Part shown: positions 15,256-39,253 of the stretch, piece after piece
Numbering within the stretch: position 1 is the stretch's first letter
How the letters are laid out: each line of letters starts with the position of its first letter
From: Nitrospirota bacterium
GTDB taxonomy: Bacteria > Nitrospirota > Thermodesulfovibrionia > UBA6902
Reading direction: 5' to 3'
Length of the DNA: 47,466 nt
Assembly: GCA_016217725.1 (NCBI GenBank)
Contig: JACRHB010000177.1
Coordinates: forward strand, 1 to 47,466
Made by a program: the position numbers and the translations under genes
Notes under the pieces: generated by a model
Database searches by the model: none
Told to the model about the DNA's origin: nothing
Seen by the model: only the letters and a program-made list of their open reading frames with translations

Positions 15256-15329
15256 ATCCCCCCTCGCCCCCCTTTGCTAAAGGGGGGAAATCACGCCCTA
15301 CATAACTCTTAACTCTTAACTCTTAACTC
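15256..15329. repeat. CCCCCCTTT hairpin followed by iterated CTCTTAA words
   Basis: CCCCCCTTTGCTAAAGGGGGG (about 15269-15288) is followed at 15305-15329 by three copies of the CTCTTAA word. The second part overlaps the end of the RND pump gene and encodes its last residues (VKS) and TAA stop on the minus strand. Confidence 0.85.
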
Positions 15330-19653: not shown

Positions 19654-21005
<1,352 letters not shown>

Positions 21006-23515: not shown

Positions 23516-23614
23516 GTCAAGAGTCAAGAGTTAAGAGTCAAGAGTTAAAAGTTTTAAAGACAATGTAATAGGAATTTTTTTCACTTTAAACTTTCAACTC
23601 TCAACTTTCAACTT
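23516..23614. repeat. Inverted repeat of iterated GAGTCAA/GAGTTAA words
   Basis: TCAAGAGTCAAGAGTTAAGA continues to 23550; the right arm, 23583-23614, iterates TTTCAACTCTCAACTTTCAA. It lies between mgtC and the divergent ftsH. Confidence 0.87.
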
Positions 23615-28957: not shown

Positions 28958-30130
28958 ATGAACGGTAAGATTAAAAAACTTGTCACTCGTCACTCGTCAC
29001 TCGTCACTGTCCCAAACGGCTTCACCCTCATAGAGCTCGCAATCGTCCTCGTAATAGTAGGCATGCTGGTCGGACTGGGCGCAAGCATGATGGGGCCTTT
29101 AACAAAAAGGGCGAAGTTACATGAAACGAGGGAGATCGTCAAGAGCGTATATGAATCATTAATGGGCTATGCGGCAAGGAACAAAAATCTACCCGCTACT
29201 TTAGCGTCTCTTGGAGTAAGAACGACTGATGCATATAACCGACCGTTGGTTTACAATGCGATCACCTTCGCCAACCTCTGTACAAACACCGGCACATACA
29301 TAACCGTCAACGACAACAGCAGCGGAACGATGTCGACACAAACCGATATTGCATTCATAGTATTAGGCGAAGGGGAGAACAGGTGCAATCAGACAGGCGT
29401 TGCTTCTCCATTTGCCATTGCCGTCCAGGACACGGTAACGGCATGCGTGGACGGCTCGGATCCCAATGCCTTCTATGACGACATAGTAATGTACCAGGAC
29501 ATAAACGCCATCAGGGACAAGATCTGCAATGTATTTAAAATAGTGACGGATAGTCTGCCGACGGGAACGGAAGAAACGGCATATCCAGACTCTAATTTAG
29601 AGGCAACAGACGGGACCACGCCATATACCTGGTCCATACTTTCCGGCTCGTTGCCCTCGGGACTATCATTGCAAAATAGAACCTCGGGGACTTGCGGCTC
29701 TGCCGCATGTACGTTATCCAATCCATGTGGATGTATTACAGGAATGCCGACAATGGACGGCAGTTTTAATTTTACAGTTAATGTTGCAGACAACGAAACT
29801 CCTAACAGGACGGCAACAAAGAGTCTTTCCATTACAATAAACCCGAATGATCCGAGGATCACCACGGAGTTTCTGACATATTGCACTGTTAATCAACCAT
29901 ATCCTGGCACTACGCTGAGTGCTTCAGGCGGAAAGCCTTCATATACATGGGCGTTGGCGGGAGGAAGCAGTCTGCCTACGGGTTTAAATTTAAATGCAAC
30001 TACGGGTGAAATTTCCGGAACGCCGACTGTAGCGGGGACATATCCATTTACCATAACGGTTACTGACAGTGGTTCACCATCAAGAAGCACATCCAAGACC
30101 TTATCTATCGCAATTAATCCTTTACCTTAA
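28958..30130 (+). CDS. Pseudopilin with two Ig-like (He_PIG) repeats
   Basis: A prepilin N-terminus (FTLIELAIVLVIVGMLVGLG) is followed by a pilin domain to about residue 190. Two Ig-like repeats of the putative-Ig type found in haemagglutinin-like proteins follow, each with an SGSLPSGLSLQ or SSLPTGLNLNATTGEISG motif ending in TATKSLSITINP or TSKTLSIAINP. Total 390 residues. The leader before the cleavage Gly is 21 residues, and 8-17 (LVTRHSSLVT) come from tandem CACTCGT words at 28980-29010. The Ig repeats suggest surface adhesion or matrix binding (inference). Its stop overlaps the convergent rnr stop by 4 bases. Confidence 0.88.
   Translation: MNGKIKKLVTRHSSLVTVPNGFTLIELAIVLVIVGMLVGLGASMMGPLTKRAKLHETREIVKSVYESLMGYAARNKNLPATLASLGVRTTDAYNRPLVYNAITFANLCTNTGTYITVNDNSSGTMSTQTDIAFIVLGEGENRCNQTGVASPFAIAVQDTVTACVDGSDPNAFYDDIVMYQDINAIRDKICNVFKIVTDSLPTGTEETAYPDSNLEATDGTTPYTWSILSGSLPSGLSLQNRTSGTCGSAACTLSNPCGCITGMPTMDGSFNFTVNVADNETPNRTATKSLSITINPNDPRITTEFLTYCTVNQPYPGTTLSASGGKPSYTWALAGGSSLPTGLNLNATTGEISGTPTVAGTYPFTITVTDSGSPSRSTSKTLSIAINPLP
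28980..29010. repeat. Tandem CACTCGT words inside a prepilin leader
   Basis: Four copies of the 7-base word GTCACTC/CACTCGT, read in frame as part of the signal peptide of the second prepilin. Confidence 0.85.
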
Positions 30131-34815: not shown

Positions 34816-34885
34816 TTAGTTTTTAGTTTTTAGTTTTTAGTTTTTAGTTAAGAGACTAACAACTAACAACTAACAACTAACAACT
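34816..34885. repeat. Inverted repeat, TTTTTAG / AACAACT words
   Basis: Four to five tandem copies of the 7-base word TTTTTAG (34816-34850) are followed by four copies of CTAACAA (34855-34885). One arm iterates a word similar to the reverse complement of the other. It lies between sppA and ihfB. Confidence 0.85.
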
Positions 34886-34889
34886 GTTT

Positions 34890-35738
34890 TCACGGCGTCA
34901 TTAAATATTTCAGGCTTATCCCCTGAAACACGTTATCTATAAGCTTTCTGGGCAGCTCGCCTTTCAGCAGCTCGAGGAAACCGAACTTTTCCTTTTTCTG
35001 CACCACCTGCGGCTCTCCTTTGATCCCGGTCATTTCTCCGGCTAATTTAATCGCATCCTGAAGGTTGCCCAGCTCATCGATAAGCCCGAGCTCTTTCGCC
35101 ATCTTTCCGGTGAAAACGCGCCCGTCGGCAAGCTTTCTGATTTCTTCGAATTTCATCTTCCTGCCGTCCGAGACCGCGCGGATAAACTGGTCGTGCACGT
35201 CGTCGAGCACCGTCTGAAGGATCTGTTTTTCTTCCGGCTTCAAAGCTTTAAAGACCGACGCAATGTCTTTATGCTCCCCGCTTTTTATTACCTGCGTTTC
35301 AACCCCTATTTTCTTCATGAGGCCTTCAACGTTCGGGATCTCCATTATCACGCCGATGGAGCCCGTCAGGGTTCCTGCGTTTGCAACTATCTTGTCGGCG
35401 GGGGCGGAGATGTAATAACCGCCGGAGGCGGCTACGGTCCCCATGGAGACGATGACCTTCTTCTTTTCTTTTATCTTCTTGATCTCTTCATATATTTCCT
35501 GAGACGGAGCCACTGCGCCGCCCGGACTGTCAACCCTGAGGATTATGGCCTTTATCGAACCGTCTTTTGCATGCTCCTTTAATTCTTCGATGACGTCGGT
35601 CGAATCAATGATGACGCCGGAAACGCGCACAAGCGCAACCTTATCCCCCAACGGGCCCTTATTGGTGATCGTCATCAAAAGGCTCAGTATTATTACGACC
35701 ACAAAAACAATGATGAAAAAAATCAAAACCTTCTTCAT
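34890..35738 (-). CDS. sppA: Signal peptide peptidase SppA (short form)
   Basis: Membrane-bound serine protease that clears cleaved signal peptides. The 282 residues have an N-terminal helix at 4-24, then a ClpP-like fold with RVDSPGGAVAPSQEIY. The catalytic dyad is Ser105 (TVAASGGYYIS) and Lys157 (SGEHKDI), 52 residues apart as in the Bacillus enzyme. It lies between rpsA and ihfB in a conserved cluster. The 137-base gap to rpsA shows no gene or recognised repeat. Confidence 0.94.
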   Translation of the reverse strand: MKKVLIFFIIVFVVVIILSLLMTITNKGPLGDKVALVRVSGVIIDSTDVIEELKEHAKDGSIKAIILRVDSPGGAVAPSQEIYEEIKKIKEKKKVIVSMGTVAASGGYYISAPADKIVANAGTLTGSIGVIMEIPNVEGLMKKIGVETQVIKSGEHKDIASVFKALKPEEKQILQTVLDDVHDQFIRAVSDGRKMKFEEIRKLADGRVFTGKMAKELGLIDELGNLQDAIKLAGEMTGIKGEPQVVQKKEKFGFLELLKGELPRKLIDNVFQGISLKYLMTP

Positions 35739-35875: not shown

Positions 35876-37453
35876 TCAAGCAATCATCATCTTCAGGCTG
35901 AGATCTATCTTCCTCTCGGCAGGATTGACGTTTATCACCCTCGACGTCAATTCGGTCCCTAGCTTGAAAAGCTCTTCCAGCTTCTCATCCGGTTTCCTGG
36001 TTATCTCCGACTTGTGCATCAAGCCTTCCACTCCGTCCTCAAGCTCTACAAAAATGCCGAAATCCGTAATGCTTACAACCTTCCCGTTTACCGTATCGCC
36101 CAGTTTGTATTTATTGGGGATTTCATCGGCCCACGGATCGGGCTTCAATTCTTTAAGCCCTACGGAAATCCGCTCTTTTTCAGGCTCTATGTTCAAGATC
36201 ACGACTTCGATCTGCTGTCCTTTCTTCAGGACGTCGGAGGGATGTTTGACACGTTTTACCCAGGAAAGATCGGATATGTGAAGCAGCGCGTCGATACCCT
36301 CTTCCAGCGCAATGAAAGCGCCGAAATCCGCAAAGCTTTTTACCTTCCCGGTAATCCTTTGGCCGACGGAGTATCTGCTCCTTGCAACGTCCCACGGATT
36401 AGGCTTCAATTGCTTTATGCTTAAAGAGATCTTCTTATCTTCTTTGTTGACTTTTAATATGGCCGCTTCAACCTTATCGCCTACGGAAAAATATTTGGAA
36501 GGCTTAACGGACTTCTCCACCCAGTCGATCTCGCTGATATGTATAAGCCCTTCGACCCCTTCCTCAAGCTCCACAAAAATGCCGTAATCCGTCGTCGTGA
36601 TGATCTTCCCTAAAATTTTTTGGCCGACAGGATACTTTTCTTCAACGGAGTTCCAGGGATCGGATTTTTTCTGTTTATAGCCGAGGGTTACTTTCGCGGT
36701 CTCGGAATTAAACGACAGGATAACCACCTCAACGGCGTCGCCTACGCTGAATAATTCCCCCGGATGGCTGATCCTCCCCCATGACATATCGGATATATGC
36801 AGCAAACCGTCGATCCCTCCGAGGTCTATAAAGGCGCCGTAATCGGTCAGGTTTTTAACCGTGCCTTTTATAATGGCGCCTTCCTGCAGCTTATTCAGCG
36901 TTTGCTCCCTCAGCTTGCTCCTTTCTTCCTCAAGGAGCACGCGTCTTGATACGATCACGTTTGAGCCTTTGTGATTCAGATTAAGCACCTTGAACGCGCA
37001 GCTCTGTCCTATGAGGTTATCTATATTCTTTGGGGCTTTTAAATCTATTTGAGAACCCGGAAGGAATGCGCTTATGCCGCCGATGCTTACGGTCAGTCCA
37101 CCCTTGACCTTTCCGGTAATCTTTCCGTCTACCGCGATGCCTTTATGAAAGGCGTTCTCGAGCATGTCCCAGGTCCTTATTCCCTCGGCCTTCAGCCTCG
37201 AAAGTTTTACAAACCCGTCGGCGTCATGCATGTTCTCGATAAACACCTCCACGTCGTCTCCGGGCTTCAGACATTTGATCTCGTTTTCAGGCAATTCGCT
37301 GATGGGTATAAATCCTTCGCATTTCGTTCCTACGTCTACGATAACCCCGTCAGGCTTTACCTTTAAGACGTTGCCCTTTACGATCGCCCTTTCTTTCAAT
37401 CCCCTGAAAGTGTTGGCATAAAGTTTTTCCAGATCACTCACTTGTGGTTCCAT
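35876..37453 (-). CDS. rpsA: 30S ribosomal protein S1
   Basis: mRNA-binding ribosomal protein of 525 residues with six S1 domains at about 22-88, 105-172, 190-258, 275-345, 362-432 and 450-519. The last four have the strong pattern G.V....YG.FV.L..G..GL.HISE. The ATG at 37453 is 17 bases from the nearest perfect anti-SD match (AGGAGGTAAT), which overlaps the stop codon of the ispH remnant upstream. An in-frame TAA blocks any earlier start. The layout suggests rpsA was once translationally coupled to ispH and kept the old site. Confidence 0.94.
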   Translation of the reverse strand: MEPQVSDLEKLYANTFRGLKERAIVKGNVLKVKPDGVIVDVGTKCEGFIPISELPENEIKCLKPGDDVEVFIENMHDADGFVKLSRLKAEGIRTWDMLENAFHKGIAVDGKITGKVKGGLTVSIGGISAFLPGSQIDLKAPKNIDNLIGQSCAFKVLNLNHKGSNVIVSRRVLLEEERSKLREQTLNKLQEGAIIKGTVKNLTDYGAFIDLGGIDGLLHISDMSWGRISHPGELFSVGDAVEVVILSFNSETAKVTLGYKQKKSDPWNSVEEKYPVGQKILGKIITTTDYGIFVELEEGVEGLIHISEIDWVEKSVKPSKYFSVGDKVEAAILKVNKEDKKISLSIKQLKPNPWDVARSRYSVGQRITGKVKSFADFGAFIALEEGIDALLHISDLSWVKRVKHPSDVLKKGQQIEVVILNIEPEKERISVGLKELKPDPWADEIPNKYKLGDTVNGKVVSITDFGIFVELEDGVEGLMHKSEITRKPDEKLEELFKLGTELTSRVINVNPAERKIDLSLKMMIA

Positions 37454-37467
37454 TGGTTTATATTATA

Positions 37468-37640
37468 TTACCTCCTGACAAAAATTTCTCTAATTTTCTT
37501 TGCTGCGTCCTCAATTATCGTTTGAGGCGTTAAAGCGCTTCCTGAAATCCCCACCTTGTCCACCCCTTTAAACCACTTTTTAAAACATCCCTCGCGGTTT
37601 CAATATGATATACTTTAGCACAAACCTCTCACTAAAGTTT
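37468..37640 (-). pseudogene. ispH: Decayed 3' remnant of ispH (lytB)
   Basis: On the minus strand, AKVYHIETARDV is followed after a one-base shift (in the GTTTTAAAAAG run, about 37576-37588) by KKWFKGVDKVGISGSALTPQ and TIIEDAAKKIREIFVRR, ending at TAA 37468-37470. These are the last about 55 residues of 4-hydroxy-3-methylbut-2-enyl diphosphate reductase, including HIETA, KGV.KVGI and the S-A-x-TP motif. Just upstream the frame is further broken (KL, two stops, EVCAK). The rest of the gene is absent. It sits between plsC and rpsA, exactly where ispH lies in many Firmicutes-like and Nitrospirota-like clusters. Confidence 0.82.
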
Positions 37641-37695
37641 AATAATTAATGATTTCCATGACGGGGTTGACCCCGAAACAAAAAAATCCGCTTTC

Positions 37696-38334
37696 TCAGC
37701 CGCTATTATCTGCATACTGCCTTTTCAATTCCTTTACGGCATCCATGACCTTCTCGCTTATCGCCTCATGCTGCAGATGCTCGCCTGAACCTTTTCCCTC
37801 TTCAATAGAAGTATAATATATCGGTTTACCGAATACCACTGAAATCTTTGCTCTCTTAAGCCATTTGGCGTCCACGGGCAGCGCCTTGTCGGACCCTATA
37901 ATGAGGGTCGGGACCACAGGGGCTCTGCTTAGAGACATTATCATGCCGACGCCGCGCTTGGCTTTGAGAAATTCGCCGGTCTCGCTCCTCCTTCCCTCGG
38001 GAAAGATCGCAATAAGCTCACCCTTCCTTAGTCTCCTGACCGTTTCTTTTATCGTGGACGGCCGGGTTCTTTCTCTGTCAACAGGGAATGCCGCCTCTTT
38101 TATCATCCAGCCCAATACGGGAATATTAAAAAGCCCTTTTCTCGCCATAAAGGTGGCCCTCCTCGGCGTCACGGATCCCAATATCGGAGGGTCGAGGTAG
38201 CTGATATGGTTGGCGGCGACAATTACTCCGCCTTCCGCCGGAATATTCTCCTTCCCTTTAACAATCAGCCCGCCGTTGATGCGGCATATAAGTCTTATTG
38301 TAAATGCGACAAGCTTGTATATAAGAGCGTACAT
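37696..38334 (-). CDS. plsC: 1-acyl-sn-glycerol-3-phosphate acyltransferase
   Basis: Adds the second acyl chain in phosphatidic acid synthesis at the inner membrane; 212 residues. The acyltransferase box NHISYLD is at about 42-48, the glycerophosphate-binding block FPEGRRS at about 115-121, and the VPTLIIGS strand near 147. An N-terminal hydrophobic segment anchors it. It lies 121 bases after cmk with two CCCCTCTCC-type repeats in the gap, and precedes the ispH remnant. Confidence 0.92.
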   Translation of the reverse strand: MYALIYKLVAFTIRLICRINGGLIVKGKENIPAEGGVIVAANHISYLDPPILGSVTPRRATFMARKGLFNIPVLGWMIKEAAFPVDRERTRPSTIKETVRRLRKGELIAIFPEGRRSETGEFLKAKRGVGMIMSLSRAPVVPTLIIGSDKALPVDAKWLKRAKISVVFGKPIYYTSIEEGKGSGEHLQHEAISEKVMDAVKELKRQYADNSG

Positions 38335-38346
38335 GAATATTTATAT

Positions 38347-38442
38347 GCCCTCTCCCCCCTTGCGGGAGAGGGTTAGGGAGAGGGGGATTTAATAAGCTTT
38401 TCTCACCCTCCCCTTAATCCCCTCCCATCAAGGGAGGGGAAG
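38347..38442. repeat. Two inverted repeats, CCCTCTCC types, between cmk and plsC
   Basis: CCCTCTCCCCCCTTGCGGGA then GAGGGTTAGGGAGAGGGGG at 38347-38385, matching the element at 8572-8609. The second, 38405-38442, is CCTCCCCTTAATCCCCTCCC facing GGGAGGGGAAG. Confidence 0.85.
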
Positions 38443-38455
38443 TATCTCAAGCAGC

Positions 38456-39103
38456 TTATTTCTTCAGGCTTCCTATAATCTTTTCGACGACTTCTTCTAT
38501 GCTGAGCTTGCTCGTGTCTATGTAAATCATATCATCCGTCTTCTTGAGCGGCGAGCTTTCCCTCGTGGAATCCCTCAAATCTCTTTTTTGCAGGTCCTTA
38601 ATTGTCTTTTCAACGCTTATCCCGGGATCCCTGAGCTTAAGCTCTTCATATCTCCTTTTAGCCCTTTCCTCTACGCCTGCGTCAAGGAAAAATTTATTCT
38701 CCGCATCAGGGAAGATCGTTGTGCCGGTATCTCTCCCTTCAACGACGACCTTGCCTTTTAATCCGGCCTCCCTCTGTATGGAAAAGAGAAAAGCCCTCAC
38801 CGCGGGTTTGGCGGAGACCCGGGAGCTTAATTCCCCTAGCTCGGCAGTCCTGATGAGGGACGTCACGTCGGCGCCGTTGACGCTTATGCCGTCGCCGTTG
38901 AGCGTAAGCCTTAAATCAGCCAACGCCTTTCTTAACGCTTCTTCATCGTCCGGGTCGACGTTGTCCTGCTTTACCTTCCATGCAACCGCCCTGTAAAGCG
39001 CTCCCGTGTCGAGGTATTTATAACCGAGTCTCTTTGCGCAGAGTCTTGCTAGCGTGCTTTTGCCCGCTCCCGAAGGGCCGTCTATGGTTATTACTTCTTT
39101 CAT
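38456..39103 (-). CDS. cmk: Cytidylate kinase
   Basis: Phosphorylates CMP and dCMP. The 215 residues have Walker A GPSGAGKST at 9-17, the substrate segment YKYLDTGALYRAVAWK, the VSAKPAVRAFLFSIQRE region and EGRDTGTTIFPDA, followed by the lid and RDSTRESSPLKKTDDMIYIDTS near the end. First gene of the cmk-plsC-(ispH)-rpsA-sppA-ihfB series on the minus strand. Confidence 0.95.
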   Translation of the reverse strand: MKEVITIDGPSGAGKSTLARLCAKRLGYKYLDTGALYRAVAWKVKQDNVDPDDEEALRKALADLRLTLNGDGISVNGADVTSLIRTAELGELSSRVSAKPAVRAFLFSIQREAGLKGKVVVEGRDTGTTIFPDAENKFFLDAGVEERAKRRYEELKLRDPGISVEKTIKDLQKRDLRDSTRESSPLKKTDDMIYIDTSKLSIEEVVEKIIGSLKK

Positions 39104-39166
39104 AGGTGTTTAACGTAGAACTTATAATAACAAAATATGAAATTCTAATTCTATGCGGCTTTGAAA

Positions 39167-39253
39167 ATCCTCCCCTTTACAAGGGGAGGTCGGGAGGGGT
39201 ATTGAAAAAAAATTTACAACCTCCCCTACCCCTCCTTGTAAAGGAGGGGATTT
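39167..39253. repeat. Long inverted repeat, CTCCCCTTTACAAGGGGAGG type
   Basis: CTCCCCTTTACAAGGGGAGG (about 39170-39189) plus TCGGGAGGGG faces CCTCCCCTACCCCTCCTTGT (from 39219) and AAAGGAGGGGATTT. It lies in the divergent region between cmk and the patatin gene. Confidence 0.87.

Follow-up and report, generated by a model that had tools for sequence, protein, structure and literature searches.

The gene ispH serves an essential step of isoprenoid synthesis, and the original prediction placed a decayed copy of it, in its ancestral position before rpsA, at 37468-37640 of the window (by which we mean the whole 47,466-nt stretch of DNA analysed). The locus therefore raises the question of whether a dead ispH is indeed present and, if so, how its loss is tolerated. 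The features concerned, all on the minus strand, are as follows:

38456..39103, minus strand: cmk, cytidylate kinase, intact (Pfam PF02224; synteny)
37696..38334, minus strand: plsC-like acyltransferase, intact, upstream neighbour (Pfam PF01553)
37468..37715, minus strand: ispH relic, with a start codon at 37715-37713 and the former stop codon TAA at 37470-37468 (alignment to intact ispH of relatives; shuffle tests)
37655..37715, minus strand: N-terminal remnant of the relic, about 20 codons with a 2-nt insertion (alignment and shuffles)
37468..37650, minus strand: C-terminal remnant of the relic, about 60 codons (alignment, shuffles and frame analysis)
37454..37488, minus strand: last ispH codons and spacer (GAAATTTTTGTCAGGAGGTAATATAATATAAACCA), with a Shine-Dalgarno-like AGGAGG upstream of rpsA
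35876..37453, minus strand: rpsA, ribosomal protein S1, six S1 stretches, intact, downstream neighbour (Pfam PF00575)
34890..35738, minus strand: sppA, peptidase S49, intact (Pfam PF01343; synteny)

Comparison with relatives bore out the ancestral position. Their gene order is cmk-plsC-ispH-rpsA-sppA, and the window keeps the same order on a single strand, with the relic in the ispH slot and the four neighbours intact; in 22 family genomes whose locus was fetched, plsC and rpsA are separated by an intact ispH alone. The 3' end of plsC overlaps the start of the relic. On both sides of cmk there are G+C-rich imperfect palindromes (38345-38440, ccctctccccccttgcgggagaggg..., and 39165-39250, cctcccctttacaaggggagg...), which look like REP-type intergenic elements.

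The relic (37715-37468) measures 248 nt, compared with 840 nt for the intact ispH of relatives. DNA alignment with the intact genes of G004, G001, G009 and G005 showed that about 590 nt have gone from the middle, while the start and stop codons are both still there. The minus strand at the predicted site does encode the IspH C-terminus: this remnant scores 185 against the ispH of same-genus G004/G007, the maximum among 300 dinucleotide-preserving shuffles being 32. The relic is, however, larger than predicted, with about 60 C-terminal codons in place of about 55 and an N-terminal remnant (37715-37655) that had been overlooked, which scores 46 against the ispH of relatives (shuffle maximum 26). 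The stretch from 37715 reads ATGCAGATAATAGCGGCTGAGAAAGCGG, the start of ispH, where relatives read MQIIVAKKAGFCFGV... in the DNA alignment to G004; where relatives have GFCFGV, around the first cluster-binding Cys, the relic reads DFFVSG, and the Cys is gone. The predicted frameshift and further breaks were all located in the C-terminal remnant, as a 1-nt deletion in an A-run near 37577-37581 and the stop codons TAG (37634-37632) and TGA (37631-37629). Frame analysis of this remnant gives ...KL, two stops and EVCAKVYHIETARDVLK in one frame, and KWFKGVDKVGISGSALTPQTIIEDAAKKIREIFVRR followed by a stop in another. The GGASTP motif has become GSALTP. The final ~35 codons are open in a single frame and end ...KGVDKVGISGSALTPQTIIEDAAKKIREIFVRR before the stop; the intact IspH of the same genus (G004) ends ...KLSNEVCAKVYHIETAEEILKKWFKGVDKVGISGGASTPQWIIDGVVKKIREISVRR before its own. 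In these last 35 codons about half of the changed codons are nonsynonymous relative to G004/G007, as against 5 of 18-19 changed codons in intact ispH pairs with G004 and nearer 40% in other intact pairs; the numbers are small, and the changes would fit a recent loss of constraint. Clear similarity in order and orientation, the plsC-rpsA position and the disabling lesions together mark this stretch as an ispH pseudogene.

With ispH dead, either another copy had been expected or a change in isoprenoid synthesis. Another copy was found, while a mevalonate route finds no support, since the marker HMG-CoA synthase was not found in the genome; replacement of the MEP pathway by mevalonate was rejected on this ground. 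The sole PF02401 match of the genome lies on another contig (G000:C105:11370-12185) and is the IspH half of a 575-aa IspH-UbiA fusion, encoded between ilvE and a GGDEF gene. The contig, C105, is very probably part of the same genome, because it shares its tetranucleotide use with the window (r 0.969; relatives 0.65-0.78). The fusion scores 314 bits with PF02401 and 46 bits with PF01040 (cut-off 34.2), and its IspH half reaches 283.5 bits with TIGR00216 (cut-off 187.85). All the IspH motifs are present (GFCMGV, HN, RAHG, DATCP, GHAEV, QTT, TICDST, GGKNSANT and AGASTP), and 25 fusions compared show no variation in the cluster cysteines C12, C94 and C188 or in the catalytic motif residues. An AlphaFold2 model of a same-genus fusion (L090, about 79% identical; mean pLDDT 86) has an IspH fold with a TM of 0.83-0.84 (by target) to 3DNF/3KE8, and its second half has a UbiA fold, with a TM of 0.69 to 4OD4 and a further match to the UbiA homologue 4TQ3. 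By sequence, the UbiA half had no significant match in the PDB; its matches there came from the fold search.

Within the UbiA half, the second of the two Asp-rich motifs, D..(E/Q).DRIVGRETIP, is nearly invariant across the fusions; the first, N-x7-DxxxDP, is present in most and altered in L111, L122, L126 and the G022/G029 fusions. Compared with all NCBIfam UbiA equivalogs this half stays far below the cut-offs and matches no defined UbiA subfamily. A role as quinone prenyltransferase is not favoured: a separate strong UbiA occurs in nearly all family genomes, and several genomes with only the short ispH have the separate UbiA alone. Two oddities of individual assemblies were seen among the fusions. 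In G023 (single contig, CP070788.1; L109, L124) the fusion runs into an N stretch and the matching UbiA C-terminal piece lies >1 Mb away, which suggests that CP070788.1 is a mis-joined scaffold. G034 has a pair of almost identical IspH-UbiA fusions, each on a short contig of its own (L071 on G034:C4, L072 on G034:C214), which could be read as a strain mixture or a duplication.

The short ispH is the sole form in 14 of the family's 37 genomes and the fusion the sole form in 11, while 12 have both; an open frame was counted as a fusion from about 490 aa upwards, as was a contig-edge copy next to ilvE in G025. Some of the 'only' assignments in draft genomes may reflect missing sequence. The fusion-only genomes include G010, which is 100% complete, and G022, a single contig at 95%. 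The genus of the window comprises seven short-only genomes, two with both forms (G001 and G006) and the present genome with fusion and relic; no convincing fusion relic was seen between ilvE and GGDEF in the short-only genomes of this genus. Outside the family the fusion is the only ispH in all 14 fusion-bearing genomes tested (completeness not stated). The plsC-rpsA junction could be read in eight fusion-only genomes and holds a relic in two. The second relic, in G012 of another genus, keeps both ends of ispH, and its deletion junction differs from that of the window by ~15 nt on the 5' side; the two relics are best read as independent events because the junctions differ. In the other six (G010, G024, G016, G022, G029 and G035) the junction measures 116-304 nt, with no ispH similarity above shuffles. 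G029 has two plsC-rpsA loci (L056 and L057), neither with ispH, and is possibly a mixed bin.

The IspH tree separates short native from fused IspH as two clades (100/100). The family fusions form one clade (100/100), which joins fusions from Desulfobacterota, Planctomycetota and a Nitrospinota bacterium. This grouping would not be apparent from identity alone, the fusion IspH being about 44% identical to native IspH and 44-56% identical to other-phylum fusions. In a four-gene tree the present genome falls with the short-only G004, G007 and G009 (82/67) in a genus supported at 100/100. Across genera the fusion usually follows ilvE and often precedes the same GGDEF gene, and because this context is so common a single ancestral gain followed by losses is favoured. 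Branching among the fusions has weak support; a single clade for the fusions of the genus is not rejected by the topology test (p-AU 0.52), and separate horizontal gains within the genus, or later transfers, may also have occurred.

Taken together, these observations suggest that the relic is what remains of the native ispH linked to rpsA, made dispensable after an ancestor of the family gained a foreign-type IspH-UbiA, and that the present genome kept the fusion; we give this reading a probability of about 0.9. The relic, the synteny, the fusion, its distribution, the two clades and the retention of the ispH tip described below are carried by the sequence evidence itself, and from it we infer a horizontal origin of the fusion; the order of gains and losses is drawn, more loosely, from trees with several open forks. 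The host is an uncultured Nitrospirota (Thermodesulfovibrionia) lineage, and an ancestor of its family would have acquired the foreign-type IspH horizontally, as the N-terminal half of the fusion. The native gene would have become dispensable because of this second IspH: redundancy would lift selection from it, after which it would have lost much of its interior and gathered point lesions. With both copies present, lineages would have dropped one or the other. The IspH half of the fusion would then reduce HMBPP to IPP/DMAPP as the only IspH of the cell, an activity predicted from its sequence, and the UbiA-fold half would hold it at the membrane. Membrane attachment of this kind, in which the UbiA half might also consume IPP/DMAPP directly, is plausible and was proposed by Rao et al. 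(PMC4746011).

Other accounts of the locus have to be weighed against displacement by the fusion. Were the MEP pathway itself lost, in favour of mevalonate or scavenging, the relic would be one sign of it, and ispG was indeed not found in the window's assembly. The genome nevertheless has an intact IspH domain and no HMG-CoA synthase was found in it, while ispG is present in 30 of the 37 family genomes and missing only from scattered drafts; its absence was therefore attributed to assembly gaps and rejected as a sign of pathway loss, which we regard as highly improbable. A stand-alone UbiA gene, which nearly all relatives have, was likewise not found in this assembly. In G004 a single contig holds both genes at a distance of about 40 kb, so one gap could account for both absences. 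Since the genome is a draft (93% complete, 225 contigs), a further ispH, standing alone, may also be hidden in a gap. These same shortcomings lend some colour to an artefact at the relic, with the contig collapsed or mis-joined and an intact ispH at the true locus. Yet the lesions are several and diverse (internal deletion, stops, 1-nt frameshift, 2-nt insertion) between intact flanks, amino-acid changes fall at otherwise conserved sites, and G012 has an independent relic and six other fusion-only genomes have erased sites; an assembly error is very unlikely.

The fusion might instead have been born within the lineage by duplication of the native ispH beside a UbiA gene, with the displacement otherwise unchanged. 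Both forms do occur within the same family and the fusion has conserved neighbours, but an identity of only about 44% to native IspH, the separation into two fully supported clades and the grouping of the family fusions with those of other phyla, to which they are 44-56% identical, leave little room for such an origin. Lastly, the retained C-terminus could still encode a functional small protein or RNA, given that its last ~35 codons are open and that its extreme end shows conservation among the fusion-only genomes. With about half of the changed codons nonsynonymous, all but a ~20-nt tip gone in other fusion-only genomes and no Rfam match in the window, we consider this scarcely credible.

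In the six erased genomes ispH is gone except for its last ~20 nt, and all eight readable fusion-only genomes retain the sequence immediately ahead of rpsA, which closely resembles GAAATTTCTGTCAGGAGGTAATATAAT (more loosely in G016). In intact genomes this stretch comprises the last codons of ispH and its stop. Within it lies AGGAGG, some 17 nt ahead of the rpsA start, a spacing longer than usual; this motif is probably the rpsA ribosome-binding site. The 3' tip of the dead ispH has probably been kept because that site lies inside it, and we infer selection on the tip from its retention. A broader reading would be that the last MEP step has moved from a soluble IspH encoded beside S1 to a membrane-tethered one whose UbiA-like half may use the product, with the ~20-nt tip selected through several losses as the rpsA start region; this combination we put forward tentatively, at somewhat less than even odds.

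Xenologous gene displacement, in which a foreign ortholog takes over and the native gene decays in place, is a well-known process. The present case shares with it the replacement by a foreign ortholog and the residual native pseudogene; it differs in that the replacement is a fusion and in that native only, both, relic and erased states all occur within one family, which makes the case well resolved and unusually complete. Our literature searches retrieved no paper describing an IspH-UbiA fusion that displaces ispH, and none for ispH combined with pseudogene and gene displacement. We know of no IspH-UbiA fusion with measured activity; the repeated loss of native ispH in fusion-keeping genomes provides natural evidence that the fusion alone supplies the essential step. 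Close relatives with and without each form can now be named and offer a testbed for the effect of a membrane-tethered IspH. The case also suggests that part of a dead gene can outlive the rest through a neighbour's need for its sequence.

IspH-UbiA 'Rosetta stone' fusions were described by Rao et al. in 2015 from 47 sequences, all from sulfate-reducing anaerobes, and an attempt in that year to express the full-length protein in active form failed (PMC4746011). Domain order and size are the same here, and the fusion clade takes in fusions from Desulfobacterales, the group of the original description (PMC4746011). In contrast to the published set, the fusions here are found as well in members of a Nitrospirota family, in Planctomycetota and in one Nitrospinota bacterium, and they either exist alongside a native ispH or take its place. 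The native arrangement in turn recalls the IspH-RPS1 fusions of Clostridia (NF000907/PRK00087; PMC4746011): that model gives the native short IspH its highest score (352 bits; full-length cut-off 624), and the gene directly precedes rpsA, although ispH and rpsA are adjacent, separate genes here.

Elsewhere in the window, short tandem repeats with 7-bp units lie mostly between genes (15303-15329, 20310-20343, 23516-23614, 28978-29008 and 34816-34885). The one at 20310-20343 is inside an outer membrane efflux gene, and those at 34816-34849 and 34855-34885 form a roughly inverted pair. The heptamer ACTCGTC stands in 4.4 copies at 28978-29008, some 20 nt past the start codon of a pilin-like gene (28958-30130, N_methyl and He_PIG); gaining or losing copies would alter the reading frame, so this gene could be phase-variable.
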